This document shows positions 22,653-51,315 of a stretch of 64,000 nt of DNA, one piece after another. The notes under the pieces were generated by a model that was not told the DNA's origin, ran no database searches, and saw only the letters and a list, made by a program, of their open reading frames with translations. Within the stretch, counting starts at the first letter, position 1; each line of letters begins with the position of its first letter. Both the position numbers and the translations under genes were made by a program. This DNA comes from Nevskia sp. (lineage in GTDB: Bacteria > Pseudomonadota > Gammaproteobacteria > Nevskiales > Nevskiaceae), in NCBI GenBank assembly GCA_021732745.1, contig JAKFUK010000001.1:756931-820930 (forward strand). Reading direction: 5' to 3'.

Positions 22653-24170
<1,518 letters not shown>

Positions 24171-31758: not shown

Positions 31759-31980
31759 TTGTTGGAGGCGTGTCGATGGGGACGGGATCTCGTCGAATCG
31801 CAACCCCATCCTCGAACCTGGTCTTTTAATCCCTCTTGCAGAACTATTCGAGCAAGCCCCTTTGATCCAGCGTTGCCGGGAAGGAGAAACTCGCTTTCAG
31901 CCTCTCGAAAGAACATGGACGCCTGATATCGCCGCTAGTATCATACGGACACGAGCAAAGCTCAGAAGTTGCTGGCTGCC
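31759..31980. other. intergenic space before hicAB
   Basis: No credible gene. Base composition is intermediate. It holds the motif GCCCCTTTGATCC (31856-31868), which recurs almost unchanged at 32616, on the other side of hicAB. It may mark a junction of acquired DNA. Confidence 0.4.
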
Positions 31981-32196
31981 ATGGAAAACAATCCGCTCGA
32001 CTGGACCATCGAGCAGATCGAAACCGTTGTCGCAGCCTACGGCCTGAGCTTGCACCGACCCGGCGGCAGTCATTGCATCGTCCGCCATCCCAGCGGCAGC
32101 AAAATCAGTGTTCCTGCTCATCGCCCAATCAAGCCTGTTTACATCCGACAGTTCGTACGTTTAGTCAAAACCGGACGAGGAGACAACACCCCATGA
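31981..32196 (+). CDS. hicA: HicA-family mRNA interferase toxin
   Basis: 71 residues. The double-stranded RNA-binding-like HicA fold shows the catalytic GGSH (His31) followed by RHPSG and the strand ISVPAHRP, then a helix to the end. HicA toxins cleave mRNA until neutralised by HicB. ATG 31981 is chosen over an in-frame TTG at 31969. The stop overlaps the hicB start as ATGA, the standard coupling for such pairs. Confidence 0.85.
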   Translation: MENNPLDWTIEQIETVVAAYGLSLHRPGGSHCIVRHPSGSKISVPAHRPIKPVYIRQFVRLVKTGRGDNTP

Positions 32197-32543
32197 TCGA
32201 TGCCACGCAATACCCCATCGAGGTGCGTCCGCTACCTTCCGAAGACGGTGGCGGCTGGCTCGCCACTTTTGCCGACCTCCCCTGCTGCATTGGCGACGGA
32301 GAAACGCCGGAAGCGGCGGTTATGGATGGTTACGCAGCCGCTAATGCCTGGCTGGCCGTGGCGGAAGAAGCGGGCGATCCCGTGCCCACTCCTGCCGGCG
32401 GTGGCGAATCCGGAAAATTCATGGCCCGAGTGCCCAAAAGCTTGCATGCCCGACTCGCCTCTCGCGCCCGCACGGAGGGCGTTAGCATGAATACGCTGGT
32501 GGTCGCTTTGCTCGCAGAGGGTGCCGAGCGGCGCGTTGGATGA
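32193..32543 (+). CDS. hicB: HicB-family antitoxin
   Basis: 116 residues. The N-terminal part (YPIEVRPL to about residue 50, with GGWLATFADLPCCIGDGETPEAA) is the partial RNase H fold that binds HicA, and the C-terminal part (FMARVPKSLHARLASRA onwards) is a ribbon-helix-helix DNA-binding domain for autoregulation. It overlaps hicA by 4 nt. The GC-rich composition is host-like, unlike the cassette that follows. Confidence 0.87.
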   Translation: MIDATQYPIEVRPLPSEDGGGWLATFADLPCCIGDGETPEAAVMDGYAAANAWLAVAEEAGDPVPTPAGGGESGKFMARVPKSLHARLASRARTEGVSMNTLVVALLAEGAERRVG

Positions 32544-32925
32544 TGTTTGGATGGAAACGATCCGCTTAAATGCAGGGCTTCTACAGCCTCAGAACCGATT
32601 AAATTCAACCTGGCCCCTTTGATCCAAATTTTGAAAGAGAATTCTGATAAACCAATGACTTACGCTAATGCTGCTCTTGATCCCGTGACCGAGAAAGCTT
32701 CGCTGGCAACCGCGAGGCCCCGGTACATCTGGTTCTGCTCACGGCCGCGCAATTGCAGAACGACGCTATTCGAGCTTTAAGCGCAAAACTAAGGCCTTGG
32801 GGCTGTTTTTTTCGAGGCCAGAAGTTTATGGGAAGGCTCAAACTTTGGCCCCTTTTATCGGAATCCGCCCCAGATAGCAGCTTGCGACCCAGCTACGGGC
32901 AAAACTTTACCCGGACGATCAACAA
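32544..32925. other. intergenic junction with GGGGCCAGG motif (inverted)
   Basis: No supported gene. Composition changes from GC-rich to AT-rich across this stretch. It contains TTCAACCTGGCCCCTTTGAT at 32603-32622, the reverse complement of the AAAGGGGCCAGG motif found three times after the cassette (36961, 37079, 37262), and a shorter copy at 32847. Probable left border of the acquired segment, also the place to look for its promoter. Confidence 0.5.
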
Positions 32926-34068
32926 ATGTCGGAGATACTCGCACAACAAAGAACCCGCTTCTTTGCCCGCATAACTGACGGACTTATTCAAAGCGATGTG
33001 CATCTTCTTCTTATTACACATTGCCTATCGGATCGGCCTGAGTTCATAGATGGACTATCGCGCCTAGTTGTGTCAGTGAGAATAGTCGCGATTCCATACT
33101 CAATTCATGAGCCGACCATGAACTCTCTTCGCGATCGCTTCGCCGTGTCAACGCCAACATTGGATGATTTACACAACCCAGATTTTTTGCTAAAACTGTT
33201 GGAAGAATTTCCAGATAACGCTTCGATAATTATTGTAGAAATAGGAGGATATTTTGCATCGCTGATGTCGAATATCCCAGTAGTCCTCCAAGGTCGAATT
33301 AAAGGTGTAGTTGAAGACACCGAAGCAGGTCACCGTCGATACTTAGCGGTAAATAAAGCATTGAAATGTGGTGTAATAAGCGTCGCTAGAAGTCCATTGA
33401 AAGAGCCCGAAGACTCCCTTGTCGGAGCTTCATGTATTTTTTCAGTGGAGAGAATTATGCGAGATTTAGGTACAATATTTGACGCAAAGAGCTGTACAGT
33501 ATTGGGATACGGAAAAATCGGTCGCAGTTTGGCCAAGCATGTTCGCGACCGAGGGCTACCTGTGGCTGTATACGATACGAACCCCGTCAGCCGCATATGC
33601 GCTATCTCGGACGGATTTTTCGTTCCTGATAGAGATTCATCTATATCAAGAGCAGACATAATATTTGGAGCAACAGGAAATTTAAGCCTCAGCGGCAGTG
33701 ATGTGAACCTGATGCGCGATGGCACATTTTTAGTTAGTTGCAGTTCCAAAACGCAAGAATTTGATTTGACATCGCTTCGCGCGATGTCAAAAAAAAGCAC
33801 TTCCAGCGTGGACTTGGAGAGGCTTGACTACGACTCCAAGAGACTATATATAACCTATGCTGGACAACCAATTAACTTCAGAGATGGCGCAGTAATCGGC
33901 CCAGTCCTTTACTTAATACAAGCGGAAATAATTTCAGCCGTTTCAATGATAATAAATCAGATCATTCAATGTGGAATACATTCTGTTCCGGACTCAGTGC
34001 GAGAAAATCTCGCCTACGCATGGCTTGCTGAATTCGTTAACGCAGAACGAGGATCTTATAATTGCTAA
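32926..34068 (+). CDS. S-adenosylhomocysteine-hydrolase-like NAD-binding protein
   Basis: 380 residues, first gene of an AT-rich five-gene cassette. The whole order of S-adenosylhomocysteinase blocks can be followed at low similarity: IIIVEIGGY (102-109) where the enzyme has a DDGGD-type block, GVVEDTEAGHRRY (127-139) where it has EETTTG, K159 and D163 in LKEPEDSLVG aligning with the catalytic Lys and Asp, the Rossmann motif GYGKIG (194-199), and GATGN (248-252). Real SAH hydrolases are longer and far more conserved, and the His of the N-terminal active site is not evident. NAD-dependent 3'-oxidation of a nucleoside ribose is the family chemistry, so a different nucleoside substrate is plausible. 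No clear ribosome site. Confidence 0.72.
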   Translation: MSEILAQQRTRFFARITDGLIQSDVHLLLITHCLSDRPEFIDGLSRLVVSVRIVAIPYSIHEPTMNSLRDRFAVSTPTLDDLHNPDFLLKLLEEFPDNASIIIVEIGGYFASLMSNIPVVLQGRIKGVVEDTEAGHRRYLAVNKALKCGVISVARSPLKEPEDSLVGASCIFSVERIMRDLGTIFDAKSCTVLGYGKIGRSLAKHVRDRGLPVAVYDTNPVSRICAISDGFFVPDRDSSISRADIIFGATGNLSLSGSDVNLMRDGTFLVSCSSKTQEFDLTSLRAMSKKSTSSVDLERLDYDSKRLYITYAGQPINFRDGAVIGPVLYLIQAEIISAVSMIINQIIQCGIHSVPDSVRENLAYAWLAEFVNAERGSYNC

Positions 34069-34078
34069 CTTTAGGCAT

Positions 34079-34666
34079 ATGCACATCAGCCTCGCACTCG
34101 ACGCAATCGACCGGTTTAAGACACACTTTCCGTCCGATGCAGACCGCATCGATCTCGATGGTGCTGAACGCCGCGTAAAGGAGTTGGCCGCAGGGAAATC
34201 ACCAGACCACATTACGGCTAGCGCTCTAGTTGTGGATCCGAGGTCACGGAGTCTTCTTCTTGTTTGGCACGACACTCTCGGCCAGTGGTTACAGCCAGGC
34301 GGCCACGTCGAATCCGCTGACCTTAGCCTAATCGATGCGGCAAAGCGCGAACTTCTTGAAGAAACCAGCATAGAGCCGTCATTCCTCGTCTTCCCGTTCA
34401 CTCGCGACTGCCCATTTGATGTAGACGTTCATTTTATTCATAATGAACATAGACATCGACCTCATTTTCATATTGACTTCCGATTCGTATTTTATGCCGA
34501 GAAGCCATATTCACTTGCCTTGCAGTCAGAGAGACCACGAATTCGGTGGATCGACTCTGCAGCAGCCACAAAGGCTCTTTTAACGATTGACTTACAAAGA
34601 ACTATTAGAAAACTCTGTGATTGTGGAATAATGTCGCAATCAAAAAATATCGAAGGAATACCGTAA
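34079..34666 (+). CDS. NUDIX hydrolase
   Basis: 195 residues from ATG 34079, 10 nt after the SAH-hydrolase-like gene. The NUDIX box lies at 74-98: GGHVESADLSLIDAAK then RELLEETSI, with the catalytic R90, E91, E94 and E95 intact; there is one extra residue in the spacer and Ser for the last Gly, both tolerated in relatives. It should hydrolyse a nucleoside diphosphate linked to another group. An N-terminal helical segment of about 45 residues precedes the fold. Substrate unknown, but the neighbours suggest a nucleotide. Confidence 0.82.
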   Translation: MHISLALDAIDRFKTHFPSDADRIDLDGAERRVKELAAGKSPDHITASALVVDPRSRSLLLVWHDTLGQWLQPGGHVESADLSLIDAAKRELLEETSIEPSFLVFPFTRDCPFDVDVHFIHNEHRHRPHFHIDFRFVFYAEKPYSLALQSERPRIRWIDSAAATKALLTIDLQRTIRKLCDCGIMSQSKNIEGIP

Positions 34667-34668
34667 AG

Positions 34669-35229
34669 ATGATCATTGCCATTGTAGGTCTCTGCGGAAC
34701 AGGAAAATCAGCGGCGGTCGCTCATCTTCACGCAGTTTTTTCATCGCCGATAATATACTTTGGTGGCGTCGTCTTAGCCGAGGTCGAACGCCGGGGGCTC
34801 ATAATAAATGCTGAAAATGAGCGAGTAGTTCGCGAACAACTGCGGCAAGAGCACGGGATGGCTGCGATTTCAATCGCTGCCCAAACTCAGATTTCATCGG
34901 CGCTGGAGCAGTCAGGGATCGCGATAGTTGATGGGCTGTATAGTTTTTCTGAGTATGAACATTTAAAAAATCTATATAACGCCGATCTAATCTTGATCGC
35001 CATTCACACAAATCGCCACTTAAGATACATAAGAATGGCAAGTCGAAAGGTTCGCCCTCTGACCCCCCGCGAGGTCGATAATCGTGACCTATCCGAGATT
35101 AAGCATCTTGAGAAAGGAGGTGCGATCGCCATTGCGGATTATCATATTGTTAACGAATCGACTTTAGACGAGCTAAAAAGCAAACTTAACCTGGTAGTTT
35201 TGGATATTCAAATTTACCTGAGTAGATAA
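34669..35229 (+). CDS. small P-loop nucleotide kinase, UPF0200/dephospho-CoA-kinase-like
   Basis: 186 residues, 2 nt after the NUDIX gene. Walker A GLCGTGKS is at 7-14. The following segments IIYFGGVVLAEVERRG and REQLRQEHGMAAISIAA match the layout of the archaeal-type UPF0200/COG1936-like kinases (there GD..REE..KRG and LRE..G..A). A lid-like segment RMASRKVRPLTPREVDNRD and a Walker-B-like IAIVDGLYS are present. It would phosphorylate a small nucleoside or nucleotide. The family assignment is from memory of motif order. Confidence 0.75.
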   Translation: MIIAIVGLCGTGKSAAVAHLHAVFSSPIIYFGGVVLAEVERRGLIINAENERVVREQLRQEHGMAAISIAAQTQISSALEQSGIAIVDGLYSFSEYEHLKNLYNADLILIAIHTNRHLRYIRMASRKVRPLTPREVDNRDLSEIKHLEKGGAIAIADYHIVNESTLDELKSKLNLVVLDIQIYLSR

Positions 35230-35234
35230 CGGCA

Positions 35235-36338
35235 ATGATAAAAATAAAGCTTCCTGATGACCCGTTCTCTTCCAATGTTATCTCTACTGTATTCATTACG
35301 GTAGTCGGCACTATTCTCGGCATCACTTATTCTTTTCTTTTCAAACAATTATCCGTCTTTAATTTAGCAGCTCTTTGCGCCGGTGCAATTCTATTTGTTG
35401 CGGGATCATTTGTCTTGATCTTGTCAGCCGATTCTCATGGCAGATCAAAAGGTGAGGCGCTTATAATTATTTTCGGAATTTTTATCTGCTGGCTAGCCCT
35501 CATCAGCTTTGTCAATATTAGTTTTTCGCTTCCCAGGCCCGATCCGCAATTATCAGATGTGTCAGTGCGTGGCGATCCTTCGCTTGCACTTATTCCCGGC
35601 GCATCGCCTCAACTTAGCGCGACCGCAAGGCCAAATGTGGGTACGCAGGTGCTTTTACTTTTCCCGTCAGGCGCGATCCTATTTGCGCTTCTTTGGCAGT
35701 TAGGTGTTCGTGATCAAGCAAAGCGCGTTCGTCACAATTTCGGTTTCGCGACAACAGGAGTTTTAGCTGTTCAAACCACGGATGGCAGCGGCAATTTTCT
35801 GCTTGTTCTGAATAAGAATCTACGAAATGGTAAGGGGTTGTGGGTTCCTCCGGGGGGTCACATAGACGTGTTCTCTGAGCGACCAGAGGACCGCGTCGTT
35901 GAAAAAATCCTGCTTGAGACTGGTCTCAACTCTACTGTTGTTGAGGTTAATTCGATGATGCTTCCCCCCGTGATAGGCCGCAGGACTGATCTGTGTACGT
36001 GGCACACGCCACCGGCTTTCTTATTACGAGAAGATCTCCAAGGGTTTTGCGGCAAGTTTCACAGGATTCATCTTGACTTTGTTTACATTCTGATCTCCAC
36101 CGACCAACAGACCAGTAGACTAGCCAAATATGGAAATAGTGACCGGATATTGATCCCGATTTCCGACTGCTTCTCTTCGCACGACTCGGCGAAGAACGCC
36201 ACAATTAAGACAATAGACGCATGGCGCGCTAACCAAGGTTTACAGCCTGCGTCTATGCAGGATAACTGTACAGCGGATGTCACTATGAGGCTTCACCTTG
36301 CGGCTCAGCATCTTATCCGAGTCGGAATAATAAAATGA
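35235..36338 (+). CDS. four-helix membrane protein with degenerate NUDIX domain
   Basis: 367 residues, 5 nt after the kinase gene. Hydrophobic segments at about 15-36, 43-65, 75-98 and 136-156 give four membrane passes with a 35-residue loop before the last. From about 168 there is a NUDIX-like fold: GFATTGVLAVQ, then LWVPPGGHIDVF (202-213). The box that should read RExxxEE reads EKILLE (223-228): Arg to Glu, Glu to Lys and one Glu to Leu, so hydrolysis is unlikely and ligand sensing more likely. The architecture of membrane part plus nucleotide-binding domain recalls effectors of nucleotide-signalling defence systems. That parallel is inference. Confidence 0.72.
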   Translation: MIKIKLPDDPFSSNVISTVFITVVGTILGITYSFLFKQLSVFNLAALCAGAILFVAGSFVLILSADSHGRSKGEALIIIFGIFICWLALISFVNISFSLPRPDPQLSDVSVRGDPSLALIPGASPQLSATARPNVGTQVLLLFPSGAILFALLWQLGVRDQAKRVRHNFGFATTGVLAVQTTDGSGNFLLVLNKNLRNGKGLWVPPGGHIDVFSERPEDRVVEKILLETGLNSTVVEVNSMMLPPVIGRRTDLCTWHTPPAFLLREDLQGFCGKFHRIHLDFVYILISTDQQTSRLAKYGNSDRILIPISDCFSSHDSAKNATIKTIDAWRANQGLQPASMQDNCTADVTMRLHLAAQHLIRVGIIK

Positions 36339-36958
36339 CTAGTGATCAACTTTACAGGTACATGCTGGCGCTGATCGACCAAGGGAACGTAGTGGGCGAG
36401 ATCGATATTTTTCGTGCAGGGCTGTCCAGCACAGATCCCTATATAAGATGGGCTGGCATAAAAGGGTGTGGCGAAGCTCGGGACACCCAATCTGTTGAAA
36501 AGTTGTTGGGCTTCTTGGGAACTGATGCTCCGGACTTGGGCGACGCCAATCAACGACGAGTCGCGGTCTGGGCGTTGGCAAGATTTGGTTTTGATACCAT
36601 TTTTCCATTGATTGAACATGATTCCCGGCTAGATAAGTCTGCTTTCGCAGAAGACGTAGCGGATCTTATTGGGGAACTGGGCGAGCCGCGTGGGCTCGAA
36701 TTACTGTCGCGGTTAATCGCCAGAAACGAACGTGCGGTGACACTTTGGGCGTCGCTTAGTGCTGCCAAGATCGGTGAGGCCTCATTGCCAGTTATTGAAG
36801 GATGCCTGGCTAAAAATCCAACTTTGGAGACCACATTTTATCTCTTGGACGCATTGTCGAAGATAGGAACGTCGGCCGCGCTCGCCCTTAGACAAAACTC
36901 GATGCAGAGAAGCGAGCACCATGCAATTCGTGTAATGGGTGCTAGTCTTACTGAGTAA
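36335..36958 (+). CDS. HEAT-repeat protein
   Basis: 207 residues, overlapping the membrane NUDIX gene stop as ATGA. Helical repeats with HEAT-like pattern can be followed: PYIRWAGIKGCGEARD, QRRVAVWALARFG, AFAEDVADLIGELGEPRG, AVTLWASLSAAKIGE and LLDALSKIGTSAAL. No catalytic motif or membrane segment. Such arrays usually bind other proteins or nucleic acids, so it may be an adaptor or regulator for the cassette. Last gene; repeats of AAAGGGGCCAGG begin 3 nt after the stop. Confidence 0.75.
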   Translation: MTSDQLYRYMLALIDQGNVVGEIDIFRAGLSSTDPYIRWAGIKGCGEARDTQSVEKLLGFLGTDAPDLGDANQRRVAVWALARFGFDTIFPLIEHDSRLDKSAFAEDVADLIGELGEPRGLELLSRLIARNERAVTLWASLSAAKIGEASLPVIEGCLAKNPTLETTFYLLDALSKIGTSAALALRQNSMQRSEHHAIRVMGASLTE

Positions 36959-37442
36959 ATAAAGGGGCCAGGGTCGAATGGCACTTACTTAGCGCCAAGC
37001 GATTGATTATGTGAAAGAAGCTGACGGCCGGGCACACTATTGGTCCTACCCGTGGGCTTAAAAGGGGTCATGGGCTTAAAAGGGGCCAGGCTCTGGGCTT
37101 TCCCCCCTAGAGCACGCCAACCGCGTTCAGCGCTCGGGTCGCGATGATCGACATCGACGACCACAGCAGGTTCAGCGTCCAACGAAGGAAGGTCGTGGTC
37201 AGGTCAGCCGCAGTCGCGGCCGTGCGGCCGGTGAAGCGCAGCGCAGCGCTGATAATGAATTAAAGGGGCCAGGCTCAATTAAATTACCGCTCAGCTCTCG
37301 ACAACGGACTTCATCGCGCTATCGCGATCGCGCGAAAAATCCGCGCCGAAGCTAGCCGCAGAAGGCGGGCGCGGCCGGCCCTACTTGGCCAGATGTCGGC
37401 AAAGGATTGCAGACCTGCTGATCGCCGCAGTCAGCGGCTGCC
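36959..37442. repeat. right border with repeated AAAGGGGCCAGG motif
   Basis: About 480 bases without a supported gene. AAAGGGGCCAGG occurs at 36961, 37079 and 37262 (the last continues CTCAATTAAATT), with a variant AAAAGGGGTCATGGGC at 37060. The copies lie in opposite orientation to the motif at 32603 before the cassette. Similar GGGGxCAGG motifs are known to me beside REP-associated transposases, though none is encoded here. GC content returns to host-like values in the second half. Confidence 0.6.
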
Positions 37443-49621: not shown

Positions 49622-50278
49622 TTAATCTCCGCCTGAAAATGGCAACTCGGCGACCACTGAGGTCATTTCTGATGCGACTGCGCTGTCGTTGGTAGGCGAT
49701 GCCTTTATCACCCGGACCTCGATCCGATAAGTCGACGGCCATTGATCACGCTCGGCGAGGCTGGCCATCTTCTTCGCGACATCGATCGGAAATCGAAGCT
49801 GACCTGCCACTGTCGATGACGCGTCCACGGCCGACGACGACTCAACGGTTTTCCAGTCTTCCCACCGAGCCCCTTCACTGTCGCCGCGAGAGCCCACGAG
49901 CCATTGTTCGCGCGCCAGCAGCTTGAAAGCCGGAATGGTGGCGGCGGAAATGCTACTGACATCGACGATGGCATCTATCGTATCGGGATGAGGAACACCG
50001 ATCGGATCCGAGTACTCCCATTTATCAATCGTTACCGACGTCAGCTTCGGAGGCGGATTATTGGGATCCAATCCTTCCATCTGGACGTCAGACCACCAAA
50101 AGCACTCAAACCTGATTTTAGCGACGACGGCTGCCTCTGCGTTCATAGCTAGATAAGCAGCATCCGCCGCTGATATCGGTTCGGGCTTCCTCGCAGGGGA
50201 CGGCTTTTCGCAGGCCACCGTCGCCACCATGAGCGAAGCCGAGAACAAGAAAAATCCACAACGGCAGAGACAGATCAT
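49622..50278 (-). CDS. lipoprotein, candidate immunity partner of the murein hydrolase
   Basis: 218 residues with a signal ending in a lipobox-like VATVAC (lipidated Cys23). The mature part contains FECFWWSDVQMEG, a middle strand-rich region and the C-terminal block KMASLAERDQWPSTYRIE. The ATG at 50278 overlaps the stop of the upstream hydrolase gene (ATGA). A periplasmic lipoprotein coupled to a signal-less murein hydrolase is the standard layout of a type VI secretion effector and its immunity protein. No T6SS genes are in the window, so the assignment is inference. Confidence 0.6.
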   Translation of the reverse strand: MICLCRCGFFLFSASLMVATVACEKPSPARKPEPISAADAAYLAMNAEAAVVAKIRFECFWWSDVQMEGLDPNNPPPKLTSVTIDKWEYSDPIGVPHPDTIDAIVDVSSISAATIPAFKLLAREQWLVGSRGDSEGARWEDWKTVESSSAVDASSTVAGQLRFPIDVAKKMASLAERDQWPSTYRIEVRVIKASPTNDSAVASEMTSVVAELPFSGGD

Positions 50279-50964
50279 GCTTTGAAGCTCACATGCAGAT
50301 GATTATGATGTCCAGAATAAAACTTGGTTCCTTTTATTTCTTTATCATTAAACAAAACGCTCTTGTAATTCGCGTGCGATTGAAAACATTCAACCAACGC
50401 CTTTGTCATTGCACGGCTGTACGCAGTATCAGTAATCGTGATCGGCTTGTTCTTCTTGTCTGTCCTCAGCGGACGGACATCTACGTGAATTCCTGCACGA
50501 TGACTTTTGTGGGGTGGCATTAGAGCACCGCTTTGGAAACTAATATCACCAATTCCAACTTCCACACCCGGCCATTTAATCTTGAATTGCAAACAAACTT
50601 GCTGAATAGCGTTGATGGTATCTTTTGTACCGTACTGATTTTTGGTCGGTGAGTATGTGTAGTAACCAAGTCCACAAACCTGTGGAAGCAAGATAAGCGG
50701 TTTAGGAGTAATAACTAAATTCTTGATCTTGAGCTTGCCTTCGAGCAACTTCGTCCATGTACTTCCATTTACATCCACTCTACCATCAGGCATCGCCATA
50801 AAAACTTTCTGAAATAACTGGATCGCCTGAATCGTTTTTGACCCGCAATCCCCGTCTGCCTTTAGCTTCGCTCCCGCCGAGTTCAACAAGGTCTGAACAA
50901 CGATGACGTCAGCTTTGATGTTTGTGCCATTCTCGCCAACTGAAGCAATAATTGGAGCCGACAT
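50275..50964 (-). CDS. peptidoglycan-binding murein endopeptidase (LAS type), candidate secreted effector
   Basis: 229 residues from ATG 50964 with GGAGGATTT before it. N-terminal peptidoglycan-binding-like domain (VGENGTNIKADVIVVQTLL, about 9-57) and a C-terminal LAS metallopeptidase: H155-x6-D162 in SHRAGIHVDVRP and H222-x-H224 in GHHNHLHVSF complete the zinc site. LAS enzymes cut cell-wall cross-links. No signal peptide is seen, so export by another route such as type VI secretion is likely. Coupled to the lipoprotein gene downstream. AT-rich (22 G/C in the 60 bases 50581-50640). Confidence 0.75.
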   Translation of the reverse strand: MSAPIIASVGENGTNIKADVIVVQTLLNSAGAKLKADGDCGSKTIQAIQLFQKVFMAMPDGRVDVNGSTWTKLLEGKLKIKNLVITPKPLILLPQVCGLGYYTYSPTKNQYGTKDTINAIQQVCLQFKIKWPGVEVGIGDISFQSGALMPPHKSHRAGIHVDVRPLRTDKKNKPITITDTAYSRAMTKALVECFQSHANYKSVLFNDKEIKGTKFYSGHHNHLHVSFKA

Positions 50965-51044
50965 AAATCCTCCGTGAAATTCGCGAACTCTCCGCCGATA
51001 TTCTTCTATCGAACTGCCTGCTTTGCAGAAATTTTTGTCCTGCA

Positions 51045-51315
51045 TAGATACTTAATAGCATCCGGGTGTTCGTGTCAAAAAGGATGGTCAGAACTCGATC
51101 TTCACGGAAGCAGCTCAGCTTTCGTGCGAAGTTCAAGAAAGAGTCACCTGACTTGTCCGCGTTTTTAGGGTAAACGTCGCGTCCGGAATTGCGGTACCCC
51201 CTCACCTATTCCCCAAGCTTCGCTGGTAGTCCTGAGCATCCGCAAAGTGCAGAGGCCAGTTTCGTCTAGCGCGACCATTCATTGGCCTGAATCAACGCCG
51301 CCTGCAAATGGCGAG
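51045..51315 (-). promoter_or_regulatory. gene-free stretch with candidate promoter of the hydrolase-lipoprotein pair
   Basis: A perfect -35 TTGACA on the minus strand (51078-51073) lies about 110 bases before the hydrolase start; the -10 is weak (TTAAGT or TATTAA). No gene is seen in this stretch. Confidence 0.35.

Follow-up and report, generated by a model that had tools for sequence, protein, structure and literature searches.

The stretch of DNA analysed here (the window) comprises 64,000 nucleotides of Nevskia sp. (assembly GCA_021732745.1, contig JAKFUK010000001.1, positions 756,931 to 820,930 of the forward strand), and positions given without a prefix are those of the window. Around its middle, five open reading frames (ORFs), all on the plus strand, form a compact block. 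Gene 1 (P0001, 32926-34068) encodes an NAD-binding enzyme of 380 amino acids with the fold of S-adenosylhomocysteine (SAH) hydrolase; it belongs to a separate, apparently uncharacterised family. Gene 2 (P0002, 34079-34666) encodes a NUDIX hydrolase of 195 amino acids with intact residues R90, E91, E94 and E95, and gene 3 (P0003, 34669-35229) a P-loop nucleotide-kinase-like protein of 186 amino acids that distantly resembles the kinase part of the anti-phage dCTP deaminase. The product of gene 4 (P0004, 35235-36338; 367 amino acids) has four predicted membrane spans followed by a degenerate C-terminal NUDIX domain, and gene 5 (P0005, 36335-36958) encodes a HEAT-repeat protein of 207 amino acids. 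The starts of genes 2 and 3 were placed at inner ATGs (34079 and 34669); the listed ORFs start further upstream.

An earlier note, made from the letters alone, had described this block as five genes in one direction with gaps of 10, 2 and 5 nucleotides and a 4-nucleotide overlap of genes 4 and 5, and we reproduced this arrangement exactly, as well as both of its counts for AT-richness (18 G/C in the 60 bases at 33181-33240 versus 42 in those at 23161-23220). The GC contents of genes 1 to 5 are 0.439, 0.485, 0.456, 0.471 and 0.508, compared with 0.638 for fba and 0.678 for the FCSD gene, and the 1-kb GC profile of the window dips at 33-37 kb and at 49-51 kb. The nucleotide-type folds that the note had seen in the products are borne out by Pfam matches for genes 1 to 3 and by the NUDIX box of gene 4. 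Promoter- and terminator-like sites showed no excess over shuffled sequence.

The slot and its boundary repeats

The gene block itself extends over 32926-36958 as noted earlier, but the exchanged unit is larger, about 32.62-37.26 kb. This region is accessory cargo, and its slot is flanked by fba and the HicAB genes on one side and by a cytochrome c/FCSD operon on the other. A search of 18 genomes of the same genus (own genome included) with the FCSD protein gave ten matches, one of them (G023) at just 42%. In four of the eight good congeners (G013, G019, G024 and G027) the cytochrome c and FCSD genes come directly after fba, at a distance of a few hundred bases; in the remaining four (G015, G018, G020 and G021) a DUF768 gene lies upstream of the cytochrome gene. 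Extra flanking sequence was taken for six of the eight, and fba is outside the fetched stretch in G018 and G020.

Congener G015 has other content in the slot, and the break points coincide with a short repeat: homology to the window stops at 32623 and restarts at 37258, in both cases at copies of this repeat, and between the matching copies G015 has two genes (179 and 182 amino acids) in place of the window's five. Neither of the two has a Pfam or PADLOC match at E≤0.01. Since G015 has about 2.7 kb between the right repeat and DUF768 that are missing from the window, and is without most of hicA, the slot has been altered at more than one point. The HicA and HicB genes lie just outside the left repeat (31969-32543; HicA_toxin, E 8.3e-7, and HicB, E 1e-10). 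HicAB was considered as exchanged cargo and rejected, as it lies beyond the left repeat and G015 shares HicB past the break. The low GC content, the empty sites in four of eight congeners and the break points in G015 support the view that the segment is foreign and that the content of its slot can be swapped.

The left boundary repeat lies on the minus strand at 32598-32629 (core 32606-32620, AAAGGGGCCAGGTTG), and the repeat search found a second, more diverged copy on the same strand at 32830-32864. On the right side, copies on the plus strand occupy 36957-37093 (cores 36961-36975 and 37079-37093, with a weaker one at 37061-37075), and the right boundary repeat is at 37258-37284 on the plus strand (core 37262-37276). 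The arms 32598-32626 and 37256-37284 are inverted repeats of each other (83%), as are 32830-32857 and 37077-37104 (79%), and direct copies start at 36957, 37075 and 37258. The consensus from 12 aligned stretches is AATTAAAGGGGCCAGGCTCAATT. The pattern AAAGGGGYCAGGSTC occurs five times in the window with up to two mismatches, always within 32.6-37.3 kb (expected 0.36; none of 100 shuffles reached five), and AAAGGGGCCAGGSTC has 14 matches genome-wide with up to one mismatch, compared with one for the reversed control. The G015 copies at the two break points have three mismatches on the HicB side and one on the other side.

REP/RAYT systems combine a Y1 transposase with palindromic repeats. The situation here is alike in that short repeats are present in both orientations and that the genome has Y1 genes, some of the repeat copies being close to one; it is unlike in the low copy number (14 at up to one mismatch) and in that the repeats bracket cargo genes, with inverted copies at both ends and a homology break there, seen in one congener. 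The genome has seven matches to Y1 (IS200-like) transposases, two of which are near repeats, at distances of about 0.2 kb (repeat at C1:573386) and about 0.8 kb (repeat at C1:971996); in the window's own slot no Y1 transposase gene was seen. Five other repeat places of the genome were examined (L166 to L170: C1:567000-576000, C1:880500-888500, C1:969000-974500, C2:239000-244000 and C2:721500-727500). In L166 and L168, inverted copies flank accessory genes, with a Y1 gene within 1 kb; the cargo is a subtilase gene and a low-GC gene, lipoprotein-like by eye, in L166, and a gene for 174 amino acids with 36% GC in L168. At L167, L169 and L170 the clear copies are all on a single strand; the genes next to them include a Dyp-peroxidase-like gene in L167 and, in L170, a SLOG gene and a weak match to Mrr. 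We infer that the slot holds exchangeable cargo bracketed by REP-like repeats, and Y1 transposases may move such cargo.

The second low-GC patch of the window (49622-51045) holds a peptidoglycan-binding/murein-endopeptidase-like gene and an ORF of 218 amino acids without assignment.

The gene 1 family and its NUDIX partner

Gene 1 matches AdoHcyase_NAD of Pfam (E 1e-12), but scores only 69.8 against the NCBIfam model ahcY, which has a cut-off of 497.6, and its own genome holds an SAH hydrolase of canonical length (499 amino acids) elsewhere. The AlphaFold2 model of gene 1 has a mean pLDDT of 90.3 and its best match in the PDB is a thermophilic SAH hydrolase (3x2f, TM score 0.80). A genome scan for the family gave 283 pattern matches, of which 222 were confirmed as relatives; the best 80 of the 222 were kept and consist of 78 Actinobacteria, judged by record title, and two metagenome-assembled genomes (MAGs) of Legionellales, whose proteins are 45% and 42% identical to gene 1. 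The locus contexts described below are therefore biased towards Actinobacteria. Family alignments show the motifs DIGGYFA, VVEDTENGH and VARSPLKxxED.

Residues were compared between 28 family members (the window protein and those of 27 of the 83 fetched genome and viral loci) and five canonical enzymes (L004, L005, L006 and L009 among them); positions of SAH hydrolase are given in human numbering. The AlphaFold2 model was built with the same 28 family sequences. The glycines G194, G196 and G199 of the NAD-binding loop of gene 1 are invariant in the family. H55, S83, E155, T157, K186 and D190 (H32, S59, E130, T132, K159 and D163 of gene 1) are unchanged in all 28 members, and E156 and E243 are replaced by D in all 28. 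In contrast, T57, N181, T158, C195, H301 and H353 are changed in every member, and these include the conserved residues for SAH binding and 5'-chemistry (T57, N181, H301 and H353). The program misaligned the region of D131, which by eye reads DIGGYF versus DDGGD. Gene 1 is also shorter, with 380 amino acids versus 471 and 499 in two canonical enzymes that were read. Judged by alignment and model, the family appears to keep the fold, the NAD loop and several residues of ribose oxidation, but not those that recognise SAH; this pattern would fit an enzyme that has retained the NAD-based oxidation of a sugar hydroxyl but uses another substrate.

In the gene 1 tree the window protein and those of the two Legionellales MAGs form one group (100/100), which is separate from the Actinobacteria (94/92); several long branches were flagged. 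We considered the family as a trait of the order and rejected this: in the other 25 of the 26 positive genomes the match covers part of gene 1 at 25-31%, and their open frames of 475-710 codons indicate canonical SAH hydrolases by length (four, those of L004, L005, L006 and L009, were read). Among phages there were two partial matches annotated ahcY and nothing more, and gene 1 as single query gave no useful match to viral contigs. Of plasmid records, 52 have one place that covers 80% of gene 1, a count that still includes canonical enzymes; 40 Lactiplantibacillus plasmid records have gene 1 matches. Upstream neighbours of the family include two identical tandem ORFs of 483 amino acids, transposase-like by eye, directly before a Rhizobium SAHH-like gene (L037:4768-7892), and a conserved protein of 446 or 475 amino acids directly before the SAHH-like gene of both Legionellales MAGs (L038:2671-4011 and L039:4247-5674); the L038 copy of this protein has no Pfam match, and a methyltransferase gene lies further upstream.

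Gene 2 has a Pfam NUDIX match (E 4.6e-12), and the RE..EE residues of the NUDIX box are present and invariant in 17 of 17 aligned sequences; the alignment used 16 of 23 downstream-gene references, one of the 23 being the HD gene of L038. Pairing with such a gene is common in the family. Of the 87 gene 1-family loci, 77 have a gene-2-like NUDIX (E≤1e-8) at most 1.2 kb downstream and on the same strand (73 of 80 genome loci, all three viral contigs and one of four plasmid records), and the gap to a downstream gene of 120-260 amino acids is -4 to +14 nucleotides in 67 of 78 measured cases. Neighbour counts are from a home-made gene caller. In three loci (L038, a Staphylococcus plasmid and a Lactiplantibacillus plasmid) an HD-domain gene adjoins the gene 1 relative instead of a NUDIX gene; a passage of the PenF paper (PMC11592144) provides a lead, for the HD partner only. 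Common descent of the pair is opposed by the Legionellales copies of gene 1, which lack the NUDIX, by the two changes of the NUDIX label that the gene 1 tree forces, and by four plasmid relatives of gene 2 without a gene 1 neighbour (see below); the gene 2 tree does not decide this.

The contexts of the pair are diverse. In a Dactylosporangium MAG (L090) it lies inside a DISARM class 1 locus, between drmMI and drmA (DrmD and DrmMI, E 0; DrmA, 1.5e-296; DrmB, 2.9e-64; DrmC, 8.6e-96); the same interval (L090:7014-17361) has, beside the SAHH-like/NUDIX pair, HD-domain-like and helix-turn-helix-like genes, recognised by eye. Three IMG/VR viral contigs carry the pair; judged by eye, an amidase gene and an integrase-like gene are present in L123, and a serine-recombinase-like gene in L124. 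No enrichment is claimed, because defence and integrase genes were not systematically searched over all loci.

The loci were also divided by the presence of a natural-product-like cluster, recognised by two marker motifs; this covers 86 of the 87 loci (in L102 gene 1 was not called), 34 with the marker and 52 without. Representative genes of this conserved Streptomyces cluster, taken from several loci, match the thymidylate synthase, carbamoyltransferase, glycosyltransferase, methyltransferase, APH and histidine-phosphatase families. The cluster at L063:446-11444 further holds kinase-like, epimerase-like, SAHH-like, NUDIX and cytidylyltransferase-like genes (some names by eye), and it looks like an unassigned cluster for a nucleoside natural product. 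In the 52 cluster-free loci a NUDIX gene is next in 44 and every other neighbour family occurs in at most ten. Two plasmids have other arrangements. In Staphylococcus epidermidis (L032:1324-10476) genes for a TIGR00730-family protein, an HpaB-like hydroxylase, NUDIX, a pyridoxal phosphate enzyme, a phosphoribosyltransferase, HD, the SAHH-like protein and MFS lie together; a guessed link to 6-N-hydroxyaminopurine found no support in a literature search. A mobilizable Lactiplantibacillus plasmid has a compact trio of MFS, HD and SAHH-like genes (L033:5889-9086).

Genes 3, 4 and 5

Gene 3 matches the P-loop families AAA_17 and AAA_18 of Pfam (E 3.2e-7 and 4.8e-7). Its residues 1-173 align to positions 155-326 of the 630 positions of the PADLOC dCTPase model (E 7.1e-9), and relatives from L140, L141, L034 and L035 match this model too. 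The likeness to the anti-phage dCTP deaminase is restricted to the kinase-like part: gene 3 is without the deaminase domain, and no deaminase family was found in genes 1 to 5. The gene is present in one of 85 genomes of the order (its own, E≤1e-5) and in five of 339 in the class sample (own included, E≤1e-6); the four gammaproteobacterial relatives are 44-49% identical. A relative on a Nostoc plasmid (37%) stands between a DrmMI-like methylase gene and a PDC-M51A-like radical SAM gene, with DrmD/DpdE-like and DruE-like helicases nearby (of the DruE-like protein the first 833 residues were scanned), and this locus (L034:1027-15530) is possibly an undescribed defence arrangement.

The earlier note had taken gene 4 for a membrane protein whose NUDIX domain seems incapable of hydrolysis, and this view held up. 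Hydropathy has four peaks (about residues 18-36, 45-63, 75-93 and 135-153), followed by the NUDIX domain. The Pfam NUDIX score is 15.6 bits, below the cut-off of 21.1; the box GGHIDVFSERPEDRVVEKILLETGL is readable by eye, with EK/LE in place of RE/EE, so that the catalytic residues are missing. We therefore regard gene 4 as a predicted membrane protein with a putatively broken NUDIX box. Its NUDIX domain has a weak resemblance to the gene 2 family (hhalign probability 45%) that includes an H-x-H-x-D-like segment. In the class and phylum samples gene 4 was found in its own genome alone (1 of 369 and 1 of 398), and no relatives were found in plasmids, phages or viral contigs, the collection of contigs from 84,980 species being left unsearched with gene 4. 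Gene 5 matches HEAT_2 of Pfam (E 1.9e-11) and has no plasmid relatives at E≤1e-3.

Possible functions of the cassette

Our tentative first choice is a module for nucleotide-signalled defence or nucleotide-gated conflict, with the handling of an antimetabolite close to it. All five genes would handle one small nucleoside or nucleotide: gene 3 may phosphorylate this shared ligand, gene 1 would oxidise or rearrange its sugar with bound NAD, and gene 2 would cut its pyrophosphate and thereby switch the signal off. Gene 4 may bind the phosphorylated form without cutting it and alter the state of the membrane, and gene 5 could be a scaffold; a phage or another invader would trigger this nucleotide-gated membrane effector. 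The data show the boundaries, the operon-like packing, the folds, the residue states and the recurrence of the pair, whereas the shared ligand, the order of reactions, the roles of gene 4 as reader and gene 5 as scaffold and the phage trigger are inferred. A conflict function is suggested by the presence of the pair in DISARM, on viral contigs and in plasmid records, by the dCTPase match of gene 3 and its Nostoc context, and by Cap16. In passages of PMC10419184 the toxicity of Cap16, a membrane and NUDIX effector of CBASS, is said to persist when the NUDIX domain is mutated, and NUDIX and HEAT domains are named among effectors of conflict systems in a passage of PMC7159879. Gene 4 may resemble Cap16 in its architecture, membrane spans (by hydropathy) plus a NUDIX domain (below the cut-off, box by eye) whose hydrolysis may not matter; this likeness of architecture is meant as an analogy and not as membership, and unlike CBASS there is no CD-NTase or other nucleotidyltransferase among the five genes.

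The folds, the dead-looking membrane NUDIX, the foreign origin of the segment and the absence of PADLOC matches for genes 1, 4 and 5 bear out parts of the earlier note's interpretation, but several observations weigh against the signalling reading. The note had asked whether the five families occur together elsewhere, and they were not found to: genes 3, 4 and 5 have tblastn matches (E≤1e-3) in none of 93 records with the gene 1 family, while the gene 2 type is matched in 77. These records include two same-place pairs (L148/L150 and L149/L151), and the flanks were up to 9 kb, often less, some being trimmed by contig ends (L097 ends at gene 1); within these flanks the five-gene set was therefore seen once only. 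Domain, PADLOC and NCBIfam profiles revealed neither a signal synthase nor a trigger sensor in the cassette. The missing PADLOC matches of genes 1, 4 and 5 (up to E 1) also count on this side; for gene 4 the presence of a Cap16 model in PADLOC was unchecked. The DISARM context of the pair is a single locus, and no window gene matches a drm model, while the drm set is present at L090. The defence or mobile context is real but thin, one DISARM locus and three viral contigs versus 34 of 87 loci with a natural-product-like cluster. In addition, the four gene 2 relatives from plasmids that were examined (of 49 records) all lack an annotated gene 1 neighbour within 3-4 kb, the gene 2 tree does not join P0002 to the other NUDIX genes with SAHH partners, some NAD-contact positions of SAH hydrolase (T158, T159 and N191) are altered in the gene 1 family, the structure model of gene 4 is unusable (pLDDT 41.7), and the four class relatives of gene 3 adjoin genes that are housekeeping-like by eye, with none of genes 1, 2, 4 and 5 found in the stretches around them. 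Searches of an open-access library gave no description of such a gene set or of the SAHH-like family in defence, and no match to a nucleoside cluster with a defined product.

A biosynthetic alternative had been raised before and gains from the same 34 loci. Genes 1 and 2, perhaps with kinase 3, would detoxify or help make a toxic nucleoside analogue, the membrane protein being an accessory sensor or transport helper; we regard this as possible, and as slightly less credible than nucleotide-gated conflict. It agrees with the nucleoside substrate of SAH hydrolase, with the S. epidermidis plasmid, which sets the SAHH-like gene with HpaB-like hydroxylase, NUDIX, phosphoribosyltransferase, HD and MFS genes, and with one Lactiplantibacillus plasmid on which the gene 1 homologue is accompanied by MFS and HD genes only. 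In the window cassette, however, no exporter or tailoring gene was recognised, and outside the clusters the pair is mostly without a fixed third gene (NUDIX in 44 of 52, others in at most ten). The cassette could also be composite cargo, a recurrent SAHH-like/NUDIX metabolic pair with three co-transcribed passengers and no common function. That only the pair recurs, that the slot carries other cargo in G015 and that the class relatives of gene 3 stand without the other genes all speak for such an assembly; the spacings of 2, 5 and -4 nucleotides, the similar low GC content, the nucleotide-type folds in four of five products and the weak alignment of the gene 4 NUDIX to the gene 2 family speak against it, and we consider it rather unlikely, yet a live rival. 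Gene 1 as an ordinary SAH hydrolase recruited to a methyl-cycle role shares the fold and the NAD domain, but was rejected as highly improbable on the ahcY score, the second, canonical-length enzyme in the genome and the SAH-recognition positions altered in all 28 members.

Nucleotide-gated conflict, in its most specific version, would be a new immune cassette: an SAHH-fold enzyme with NAD makes or unmakes a sugar-oxidised nucleotide signal, the kinase charges it, the NUDIX enzyme erases it, and its reader is gene 4, taken as a channel-like protein with four spans and a dead NUDIX domain. All this would be palindromic-repeat cargo served in trans by resident Y1 transposases, with the pair as portable sub-module in DISARM and viral contigs. 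In this full form it is slightly less probable than the composite cargo. Whatever the function, the data point to a sizeable, apparently uncharacterised family with the SAH hydrolase fold that is often coupled to NUDIX, in three loci to an HD phosphohydrolase, and is sometimes found in mobile or defence contexts. The slot is a hint that genes flanked by short palindromic repeats can be exchanged as cargo. TRPM2-like channels are gated by NUDIX-like domains. Gene 4, provided that it reads a nucleotide, would be their counterpart in bacteria, perhaps with a new signal.

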